This document shows positions 8,205 to 45,223 of a stretch of 64,000 bases of DNA, in pieces. Within the stretch, counting starts at the first letter, position 1, and every line of letters begins with the position of its first letter. Origin of the DNA: Armatimonadota bacterium (GTDB taxonomy: Bacteria; Armatimonadota; Fimbriimonadia; Fimbriimonadales; Fimbriimonadaceae); contig JAFDWQ010000009.1 in assembly GCA_018268395.1 (NCBI GenBank), positions 186,001 through 250,000 on the forward strand, given 5' to 3'. The notes beneath the pieces are model-generated. The model worked only from the letters and a program-made list of their open reading frames with translations, was not told the DNA's origin and did no database searches. The position numbers were made by a program, and so were the translations under genes.

Positions 8205-8718
8205 CCCCCTCCCTCGCCTGACGATGGTGCAGGTGGCGGAGGGTGATAATCCCCTCCGCCTGCAGGTGGGGTTTCCGGATGCCCCCTCGCCCCTCTGGGG
8301 GAGAGGGGGATGGGGGTGAGGGGCCGGTGCAGGTCAGGCCAAGGGTTCGGGGTCTTGGGTGGTTACGGCTCCCCCTCCCTCGTCTGCAGCAGATGCTTCG
8401 TGCTGCGAAGATGAGGGAGGGGCGAGGGGTGGGAGATCCGGAACTGCTCCACCCCCAACCCCCTCCTCCTATTCGGGGCAAAAACCATCCACTGGAAAAC
8501 GGGGTTCCGGATGCCCCCTCGCCCCTCTGGGGGAGAGGGGGATGGGGGTGAGGGGCCGGTGCATGTCGGGCCAAGGGTTCGGGGCTCCCCCTTCCTCGTC
8601 TGCAGCAGATGCCACATCCCCTGCACACGTTAGACCGGACGGCAGTACTGCTCCACCCCCAACCCCCTCCTTATGTTCGGGGCACAAGACATCCCCTGCA
8701 CACGAGGAGGGGGCTCGC
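8205..8718. repeat. Composite GC-rich intergenic repeat, two partial copies
   Basis: No gene is seen. The stretch is a mosaic of modules: a CCCCTCGCCCCTCTGGGGGA hairpin unit (about 8281 and 8516), 'GGCCGGTGCA..GTC.GGCCAAGGGTTCGGGG', 'CTCGTCTGCAGCAGATGC', a CTCCACCCCCAACCCCCTCC box and a 'CCCCTGCACAC' box. The segment about 8500-8717 recurs almost unchanged at about 13010-13331. It abuts the 3' end of the interrupted gene on the minus strand. Confidence 0.75.
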
Positions 8719-9885
8719 TCACACCCTCACGCGGCCGACGCGCACCAGGCCCGTCGTCTGCCCGGTGGACGCTTCGACCAGCTTGATGCTCGCCTCGTAG
8801 TCGCCCGGCGGCGCGGGGACGGTGACGCTCAGGGCGCCTTCCTCGAAGGCATAGAAGCGATGGAGCTTGTCGTGCCCCTTTCGAGGCTTCTCCGCCACCG
8901 AGCGCAGGCGTTGAAGATAGAGGGCGGTCGTGACCCCTGGCGAATTCGGGCGGTCGGAGGTGAAGGTCACGCCGGGGGACGGGTTTCGGGGCTCGGTGGT
9001 CGGGTTTCGGTGGTCGGTGGTCGGGTTGCGGTGGTCGGGGGACGGTTGGCCGGGATTGTGCGGAGAGCCTGCTTCAATCGCGTCAGCATCATTCCGATCC
9101 GATGTGCGTCCTCTAGCTCTGCGATGAGATCCAAGTTCGGGTAAATGCGCATCGTTGCCATCAGGAGTGTCGCAAGCTCGGCTTGGCTCCCGCTCGCCAC
9201 TCCCAGAAACTGGATGTACTCCTTGCGGTTGTTCCTGCCGTTGCCTTCCGCAATGTTCGCCGCAATCGACACGGCTGCCCGCCTGATCTGTCCGGTCAGG
9301 CCGTAGAGTTCCTCCTTCGGCAACTCGCTGGTCTTCTTGTAGACATCGGCAATGAGGTTCATCGCCAATTGCCAAACCTCCAGTTTCTCGAACGAACTCA
9401 TCGTGGCTAGATGATGGCGTCTCACCGAACACCGGCGACCGACTCTCGTCCACCGACGACCGATTCTCGGCAACCGACGACCGACTCTCGACCACCGAAA
9501 CCCGAACGTTATCGCCCAGGAACACGGCCTCGGGCGGGGTGCGGGGCGGGAAGGTGCCGGGGTGGAGGCGCATGTAGGTGCTCGCGAGGACGGGGAACAG
9601 CGTGCTCGGTCGCCACTTCTTCCCGCTTGGCCCCCCGTCCCCGTCATTCGCGACCCGCCGACAGAAGGCCTCCCACGCCTGGTGCTCCTCCAACGTGAGA
9701 CCGGCGAAGATCTTCATCGCCACCTGCCAGTCGGCGCGGCGGTCGAGTTGGGCGTCGGTGCGAGGGTCCTTGAGGCTGGGTCGCTCGCGGAGCACGGTCG
9801 TGCCGTCGGGCATCTGCACCACGACGGCGTTGCCCAGCCCGCCGCTGATCCCGGTCATCAAGGCCCCTGTCCTGATCGTCGCCAT
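8719..9885 (-). CDS. Orphan-family protein interrupted by an S23 cassette
   Basis: A 388-codon frame of the same orphan family as the genes at 37625-38329 and 45291-46217. The family part is residues 1-131 (ending in a 'GDNVRVSV' strand) plus about 303-388 ('SPGVTFTSDRPNS...' to the end). Residues about 132-302 do not match the family: they are translated, out of frame, from an inserted segment made of heptamer arrays around a four-helix-bundle gene. The frame stays open across the whole insertion. The start at 9885 has GACAAT 7 bp upstream and no Shine-Dalgarno. Function unknown; the mature product may be non-functional or may carry a disordered loop. Confidence 0.6.
   Translation of the reverse strand: MATIRTGALMTGISGGLGNAVVVQMPDGTTVLRERPSLKDPRTDAQLDRRADWQVAMKIFAGLTLEEHQAWEAFCRRVANDGDGGPSGKKWRPSTLFPVLASTYMRLHPGTFPPRTPPEAVFLGDNVRVSVVESRSSVAENRSSVDESRSPVFGETPSSSHDEFVRETGGLAIGDEPHCRCLQEDQRVAEGGTLRPDRTDQAGSRVDCGEHCGRQRQEQPQGVHPVSGSGEREPSRACDTPDGNDAHLPELGSHRRARGRTSDRNDADAIEAGSPHNPGQPSPDHRNPTTDHRNPTTEPRNPSPGVTFTSDRPNSPGVTTALYLQRLRSVAEKPRKGHDKLHRFYAFEEGALSVTVPAPPGDYEASIKLVEASTGQTTGLVRVGRVRV
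8967..9401 (-). CDS. S23/TIGR02436-type four-helix-bundle protein, nested
   Basis: A 144-codon gene in a different frame on the same strand as its host. Its product shows the hallmark pattern of the family linked to 23S rRNA intervening sequences: 'FEKLEVWQLAMNL', 'YGLTGQIRRAAVSIAANIAEG', 'EYIQFLGVASGSQAEL' and a final helix 'MMLTRLKQAL'. Related proteins include Avd of diversity-generating retroelements. The last ~20 residues (repeats of 'RPPTT') come from the flanking array and are probably acquired. The ATG at 9401 directly opens the first conserved helix. Its role is unknown; RNA or nucleic-acid binding is the usual suggestion. Confidence 0.85.
   Translation of the reverse strand: MSSFEKLEVWQLAMNLIADVYKKTSELPKEELYGLTGQIRRAAVSIAANIAEGNGRNNRKEYIQFLGVASGSQAELATLLMATMRIYPNLDLIAELEDAHRIGMMLTRLKQALRTIPANRPPTTATRPPTTETRPPSPETRPPA
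8973..9053. repeat. Heptamer array, left arm of the S23 cassette
   Basis: Degenerate G-rich heptamer repeats such as GGTTTCG and GTGGTCG. The 17 bases TCGGGTTTCGGTGGTCG at 9000-9016 are the exact reverse complement of 9489-9505, so the two arrays flank the S23 gene as inverted repeats. Confidence 0.75.
9424..9513. repeat. Heptamer array, right arm of the S23 cassette
   Basis: C-rich heptamers (ACCGACG, ACCGAAA and the like) in inverted orientation to the array at 8973-9053; perfect 17-bp inverted match at 9489-9505. The S23 start codon lies 22 bp inside this arm. Confidence 0.75.
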
Positions 9886-9898: not shown

Positions 9899-10117
9899 GG
9901 CGCTCGCAGTCGTTCCGATCATGGTTGCGGCCCCTTTCTGCACGCTTCGTCGGCCCGTGGTCGTTCCGTCGTCGTTCCGTGGTCGTACCGTGGCGACGGC
10001 GCGACGGCGGCAAGACGAGGATTCGACGAGGCTTGGACGACAGGTGTGGGATGGGGGCGAAACGTGGTCGTGGACCCCCGCGTAAGAGCCTTGTAGGTTC
10101 CCGGAACCTCACGGGAC

Positions 10118-12882: not shown

Positions 12883-12957
12883 TCGGTCGGGGGTCGGGGG
12901 TCGGTCGTCGGTGGTCGGGTTTCGGGGCTCGGGTCTCGGGTCTCGGGGCAGCCAAGG
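12883..12957. repeat. Heptamer array at the broken HNH gene
   Basis: G-rich heptamers (GGTCGGG, TGGTCGG, GGTCTCG). It shares the 17-mer CGGGTTTCGGGGCTCGG with the left arm of the S23 cassette. Confidence 0.7.
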
Positions 12958-13331
12958 TGCTCCACCCCCGACCCCCTCCTCCTATTCGGGGCACGAACCA
13001 TCCGCCGGAAAGCGGGGTTCCGGACCCCCTCGCCCCTCTGGGGGAGAGGGGGATGGGGGTGAGGGGCCGGTGCATGTCGGGCCAAGGGTTCGGGGCTTCC
13101 CCTCCCTCGTCTGAAGCAGATGCCTCATCCCCTGCACACGTTAGACCGGACGGCAGTACTGCTCCACCCCCAACCCCCTCCTCATGTTCGGGGCACAAGA
13201 CATCCCCTGCACACGGAATTGGGAAAGCGGAACTGCTCCACCCCCAACCCCCTCCTCCTATTCGGGGCACCCTTCGGCTTCGCTCAGGGCAGGCTCTCCT
13301 TCGGAGACATCCCCTGCACGCGAGGAGGGGG
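12958..13331. repeat. Composite GC-rich intergenic repeat, longest copy
   Basis: Mosaic of the modules seen at 8205-8718: a CTCCACCCCC(A/G)ACCCCCTCC box three times (about 12959, 13161, 13240), the CCCCTCGCCCCTCTGGGGGA hairpin and the 'CCCCTGCACACG' box. It also carries the insert 'CCCTTCGGCTTCGCTCAGGG' (about 13270-13289), an inverted repeat often seen as a dispersed element in other genomes. No gene is seen. Confidence 0.75.
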
Positions 13332-40559: not shown

Positions 40560-40605
40560 GCATCGACACTCGAAACCCGAGACCCCAAACCCGAGCCCCG
40601 ACGAG
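40560..40605. repeat. Short heptamer array
   Basis: C-rich heptamers (CGAAACC, CGAGACC, CCAAACC, CGAGCCC) of the same family as the arrays at 9.0, 9.4 and 12.9 kb. It lies in the 269-bp gap between the PIN module and the PHP-ATPase gene. Confidence 0.6.
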
Positions 40606-45149: not shown

Positions 45150-45223
45150 GCGGCAAGACGTTCCACCCCCACAACACCCCCGCCAAACCCCCGCATCACC
45201 CCCGCAAACAGGCTTTGCGGGGG
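45150..45223. repeat. CCCCCGC mini-repeats ending in a perfect hairpin
   Basis: Four to five imperfect copies of an ACCCCCGC unit lead into CCCCCGCAAA-CAGGC-TTTGCGGGGG (45199-45223, 10-bp perfect stem). It lies in the 328-bp gap between the divergent DUF2130 and orphan-family genes, so it cannot be a simple terminator for either. The gap holds no gene. Confidence 0.6.

Follow-up and report, generated by a model that had tools for sequence, protein, structure and literature searches.

The S23 gene and its heptamer arrays

The stretch of 64,000 nt analysed here (hereafter the window) contains a gene of the S23/IVP family that lies between two arrays of degenerate heptamers, with the whole unit placed inside a larger open reading frame (Table 1). 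The window S23 matches PF05635 with 103 bits against a curated cut-off of 33.8 and TIGR02436, described as "four helix bundle protein", with 98.4 bits against a cut-off of 24; the PF05635 match is the only domain match in the element, within which the profile search found no transposase or recombinase. The conserved core of the protein covers approximately residues 1-115 and is followed by a C-terminal tail (RPPTTATRPPTTE...) of some thirty residues that is encoded by the downstream array. Proteins of the S23/IVP family are common and pentameric structures have been solved, yet we know of no function for them. The homologue structures 2gsc and 2rld have five chains each, and five four-helix bundles are described in the 2006 structure paper to which PMC10053308 refers. 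A related four-helix-bundle fold is found in Avd of the diversity-generating retroelements (2GSC compared with 4DWL, PMC10053308); identification of the window protein as Avd was rejected, as it scores 18.2 bits against a profile cut-off of 80.

Table 1. Positions in the window of the cassette, the halves of its host gene and the solo arrays
Feature	Position	Strand	Basis and remarks
Host gene, N-terminal half	9507..9885	-	Family residues 1 to ~126; tblastn against the family and alignment
Host gene, C-terminal half	8719..8985	-	tblastn against the family and alignment
S23/IVP gene	8967..9401	-	144 aa; PF05635 (1.2e-29), TIGR02436, start at 9401, codon pattern
Upstream array (relative to S23)	9426..9506	-	Tandem repeat 9426-9498, 21 nt = 3 x 7; inverted arm 9447-9506
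Downstream array (relative to S23)	8973..9045	-	C-rich heptamers on the S23 sense strand
Solo array, GGTCGGG, same heptamer family as the cassette, no S23 gene	12885..12947	+	Lag-7 score 38
Short solo array, heptamers GGTTTCG/GGTCTCG (minus strand), related to those of the cassette	40563..40601	-	Repeat searches

Repeat searches of the window detected both arrays, at 8973-9045 and 9426-9498, with units of 7 nt and a higher period of 21 nt, the upstream units being of the TCGGTGG type and G-rich on the S23 sense strand. The two are inverted copies of each other that are 77% complementary over 60 nt and that include a perfect 17-bp pairing between 9000-9016 and 9489-9505. This inverted pairing is far beyond chance: its ungapped score is 32, whereas 1000 shuffles reached at most 16 and 2000 random pairs of window segments at most 15. 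The arrays are also conducive to a strong RNA fold (z=-3.67). The repeat and profile searches thus confirmed the preliminary description of an S23 gene between mutually inverted heptamer arrays with a perfect 17-bp match. The solo array 3.5 kb from the cassette is the only other cluster in this genome that matches the cassette heptamer. The window also has tandem arrays with a unit of 11 nt, not 7, at 9949-10040 and 45164-45206.

The interrupted host gene

The host ORF (8719-9885, minus strand, 388 aa) contains the S23 gene on the same strand in a different frame and is open throughout the cassette. The host protein has no match among the Pfam and NCBIfam profiles. It nevertheless belongs to a multicopy family: this genome has 19 stretches that match, and a search of 61 genomes found members in 17, most of them from the same taxonomic family and order. 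The earlier claim that the unit interrupts an orphan-family gene, on the same strand and in another frame, therefore stands as regards the interruption, the strand and the frame but not as regards the orphan status.

Alignment of the host family reveals two conserved halves that meet at a hinge, and the paralogues differ in in-frame insertions at or near it, several of which consist of a dispersed palindromic repeat. This repeat, with CCCCTCGCCCCTCTGGGGGAGAGGGG, is present in the window at 8283-8320, 8515-8552 and 13000-13180, and its translated copies lie in frame at the hinge in several host paralogues. The closest relative of the window host gene, in genome G010, has no insertion. In a second genome of the same genus (G001) a cassette is found at the same hinge but in a different paralogue, and it has heptamers of the same family and an S23 protein that is 80% identical to that of the window; the relative of this paralogue in the window genome (G000 C3:339) has the palindromic repeat in place of the cassette. 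Together these cases indicate that the hinge of the host is a permissive loop and that the cassette was gained or has moved. Across the family the other host genes are mostly without the segment, rather than all containing it as an old domain of the protein. No target-site duplication was found, the nearest empty host being too diverged for a nucleotide junction, and the search for an integration enzyme and for an empty site of the cassette at the nucleotide level found neither.

Comparison of the S23 genes of the window and G001 gives 23, 8 and 58 differences at first, second and third codon positions, and the gene is therefore under purifying selection. Across the cassette the host frame is 43% identical between the two genomes and stop-free in both; synonymous recoding of S23 keeps this frame open in 3.3% of trials (P about 0.03). 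A host frame that is stop-free through the cassette speaks for a host translated together with the insert and against excision of the segment from the mRNA; with the frame open such excision is not needed.

S23 loci across bacteria and archaea

A scan of an 84,980-species collection confirmed 582 relatives of S23, and the survey rests on the 80 best of these. Having been selected as the best matches to proteins related to that of the window, they under-sample distant S23 branches. The loci come from many bacterial phyla and some archaea. An rRNA context was rejected, as neither Rfam on ten loci nor a search for conserved 23S motifs in all 80 found any. In both flanks of S23 a lag of 7 (with 14 and 21) is strongly enriched over controls, lags of 8 and 9 are in slight excess and other lags show none. 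Inverted pairing of the two flanks was seen in 68% of comparisons within an S23 locus, as opposed to 4% when the flanks came from different loci and 5% around control genes. Under a stricter control, with flanks extended over the 3' end of the gene and small ORFs from the same DNA as the comparison set, inverted flanks are present at 61 of 75 S23 loci (81%) and at 17 of 185 other small ORFs (9%, p=5e-30), and at about a fifth of the surveyed S23 loci no inverted pair was detected. A second set, from viral contigs, has inverted flanks in 23 of 25, some of these contigs being near-copies of each other. The arrays have a marked polarity, with the upstream one G-rich in 44 of 49 and the downstream one C-rich in 45 of 51, and median lengths of 37 nt and 35 nt respectively, a five-heptamer length that is shaped partly by the detection threshold. 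Their units share a weak common consensus that resembles TTAGTGG (2.32 bits against a permuted null of 1.86 +/- 0.06). The check proposed in the preliminary description, in which the same S23 is located elsewhere and its flanks compared, thus yielded array-bounded cassettes at most sampled loci, and far from never being flanked by such arrays S23 homologues usually are.

Most cassettes lie between genes on the same strand, including groES and groEL, carA and carB, sdhA and sdhB, fadJ and fadA, a thiolase and an acyl-CoA dehydrogenase, and others, with gene names assigned by eye from translations. Related S23 genes occupy different operon slots. Several copies hold the same slot across genera (groES and groEL, sdhA and sdhB, fadJ and fadA), which implies either that S23 moves slowly or that function keeps copies in place. 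In the genus of the window S23 is also found between groES and groEL (L050, L048, L032 and L037), with units that by eye are 7 or 9 nt. Supported clades of the S23 tree mix phyla, one of them containing Acidobacteriota, Cyanobacteriota and Alphaproteobacteria, and S23 copies occur on plasmids and viral contigs. Searches of named phage records gave no match for the cassette as phage cargo and searches of plasmids no DNA relative of the window cassette. On a Calothrix plasmid the neighbour of S23 is a phage-integrase gene, and TGTAGGG arrays flank S23 on either side (L357).

Five cassettes from other phyla appear to be nested in DNA-methylase genes. By Pfam three of these hosts are over the cut-off (L088, L154 and L132) and one is below it (L100), the fifth (L102) being judged by eye, with host parts upstream and downstream of the cassette that seem to be in different frames. 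Two further loci with frames open across the cassette were not counted as nested, L117 as it resembles two adjacent genes and L157 as it is ambiguous. The cassettes of L088 and L154, from Dehalococcoidia and Balneolales, lie in the same loop of an N6_N4_Mtase gene, and this loop varies in length. With the flanks of the Balneolales host joined as a query, 28 plasmid records match over at least 80% of its length, and so uninterrupted hosts are usual.

The heptamers are specific to the element rather than to the genome. The highest number of PF05635 copies per genome is 16, in one Clostridia genome, where the copies that were read have different heptamers; a single genome-wide heptamer per genome was therefore rejected. 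Where a solo array lies near an S23 gene, its units usually match those of that gene's own arrays, with a mean score of 20.0 against 7.9 for other genomes. Similarity of heptamers covaries weakly with similarity of S23 proteins (Mantel p 0.0005, and 0.0055 below 50% identity), to which base composition may contribute. Counts based on sampled stretches of genomes, and thus on small samples, gave 10 arrays per 400 kb in S23-bearing and 2 per 620 kb in S23-free genomes within one family, and 4 against 0 per 400 kb among the relatives of the window.

Alternative explanations

The most ordinary account is that heptamer repeats are common in the intergenic DNA of some bacteria and that S23 is there by chance. 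Such repeats are indeed over-represented in bacteria and form inverted pairs in Xanthomonas (PMC4692102), but the 9% of other small ORFs with inverted flanks, against 81% for S23 in the same DNA, together with arms that match inside one locus and not between loci, make this account very improbable. The preliminary description also hinted at an RNA-processed element; in the manner of rRNA intervening sequences, the stem of the arrays would be cut by RNase III so that the segment leaves the host mRNA. The inverted arms and the favourable fold would suit this, as would the Coxiella 23S element, which has three tandem heptamers (GACAGAT) ahead of its S23 ORF and is cut by RNase III (PMC4990558). 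However, a cut of the mRNA that is not rejoined would destroy the host message, and a frame that is open through the insert in both genomes of the genus (P about 0.03), as well as in five of five nested cases (P 0 to 0.033 each, in a sample biased by being found through open frames), is unneeded under excision; the proposal fares poorly against this and we regard it as improbable.

Two further accounts deserve more weight, although we consider both unlikely. Homologous recombination among the copies of the host family, or from array to array, might have produced the nested position in the window with no insertion of a mobile unit. The 19 family stretches in the genome and the solo array only 3.5 kb away speak for this, and the use of the same hinge in different paralogues of two genomes of the genus makes cassette exchange between paralogues possible; the similar cassettes that other phyla have in unrelated hosts and in operons are left unexplained, and we consider recombination rather unlikely. 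Somewhat less unlikely, but still doubtful, is that the cassette is a regulatory device, itself immobile, in which S23 would act on its own operon by binding the G-rich array of the mRNA, so that expression of the neighbouring genes is tuned, with arrays that turn over yet remain complementary as either the stem or the binding matters. The strong array polarity, the weak common unit consensus, the RNA fold (z=-3.67) and the operon slots that several genera share with different heptamers all point in this direction, whereas the insertions inside methylase genes and in different paralogues, the related S23 genes in different slots and the many solo arrays that have no S23 point away from it.

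Comparison with known repeats and elements

The closest known arrangement is that of the 23S rRNA intervening sequences of Coxiella and Leptospira, where likewise an S23-family ORF lies between complementary arms (PMC4990558). The window cassette has the complementary arms around the ORF but lies in a gene of a protein family and not in a 23S rRNA gene, other cassettes lie in operon gaps, the arms are element-specific heptamer arrays and there is no sign of excision. The Rickettsia palindromic elements likewise insert in frame into protein-coding genes, but they are repeats with no gene aboard, whereas the S23 cassette carries one.

Heptamer repeats in bacteria are over-represented and little explained (PMC4692102). 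In Xanthomonas and Nostoc there are degenerate G-rich 7-nt intergenic arrays, often in inverted pairs, but S23 is absent from that account (PMC4692102), whereas the arrays described here flank S23 genes and exist in many sequence versions. The TAACTGA repeats of Beggiatoaceae are dispersed tandem heptamers, as here, but they are mostly direct repeats ahead of start codons and are reported with no mention of S23 (PMC4679880). Within a partial coverage of the literature no paper was found that links S23 to heptamer arrays, only fragments of the rule, and a cassette of this kind looks undescribed.

A probable mobile cassette

We consider it probable, if by no means certain, that the window segment represents a type of small mobile cassette that is widespread and that consists of an S23/IVP gene bounded by inverted degenerate 7-nt arrays. 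The suggestion of a mobile element made in the preliminary description is supported by the homologous host that lacks the segment, by the second cassette of the genus, whose S23 is 80% identical and which occupies this hinge in another paralogue, and by the array-bounded cassettes found in varied places across phyla. Units would be of 7 nt and in a minority of 8 or 9 nt, and the ends would be set by period, strand bias and mutual complementarity rather than by a fixed sequence. Insertion would take place mostly between operon genes and sometimes in protein loops that tolerate extra residues; translation of the window host most likely includes the insert, S23 being made from its own start in the other frame. 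During movement the arrays may be copied along with the S23 gene, and since S23 has no recognisable catalytic domain the enzymes for this would come from elsewhere.

Several results count against the cassette reading: the copies that hold one slot across genera, the fifth of loci in which no inverted pair was detected, the searches that found no integration enzyme, target-site duplication or nucleotide-level empty site, and the variation of the heptamer sequence among S23 homologues. For this last reason recognition of the arrays by S23 is something that we only infer. The S23 pentamer may recognise them with perhaps one heptamer per subunit (~35 nt for five), comparable to TRAP on triplets, and a ring with one unit per subunit would explain why unit length is fixed and sequence is free. 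More tentatively still, and with a likelihood that we place clearly below even, the cassettes could constitute a categorically new class of mobile element, one where recognition of the ends depends on unit length and mutual complementarity and not on sequence, with each pentamer reading a private array at one unit per subunit, and this would explain the excess of heptamer repeats in bacteria.

The link between S23 and heptamers gives both of them a testable role, as a ring protein and a private tandem array that travel together in cassettes; these would insert into operons and even the loops of enzymes that modify DNA. If true, this would provide genome annotation with a new kind of mobile cassette, together with a panel of natural protein-repeat pairs.
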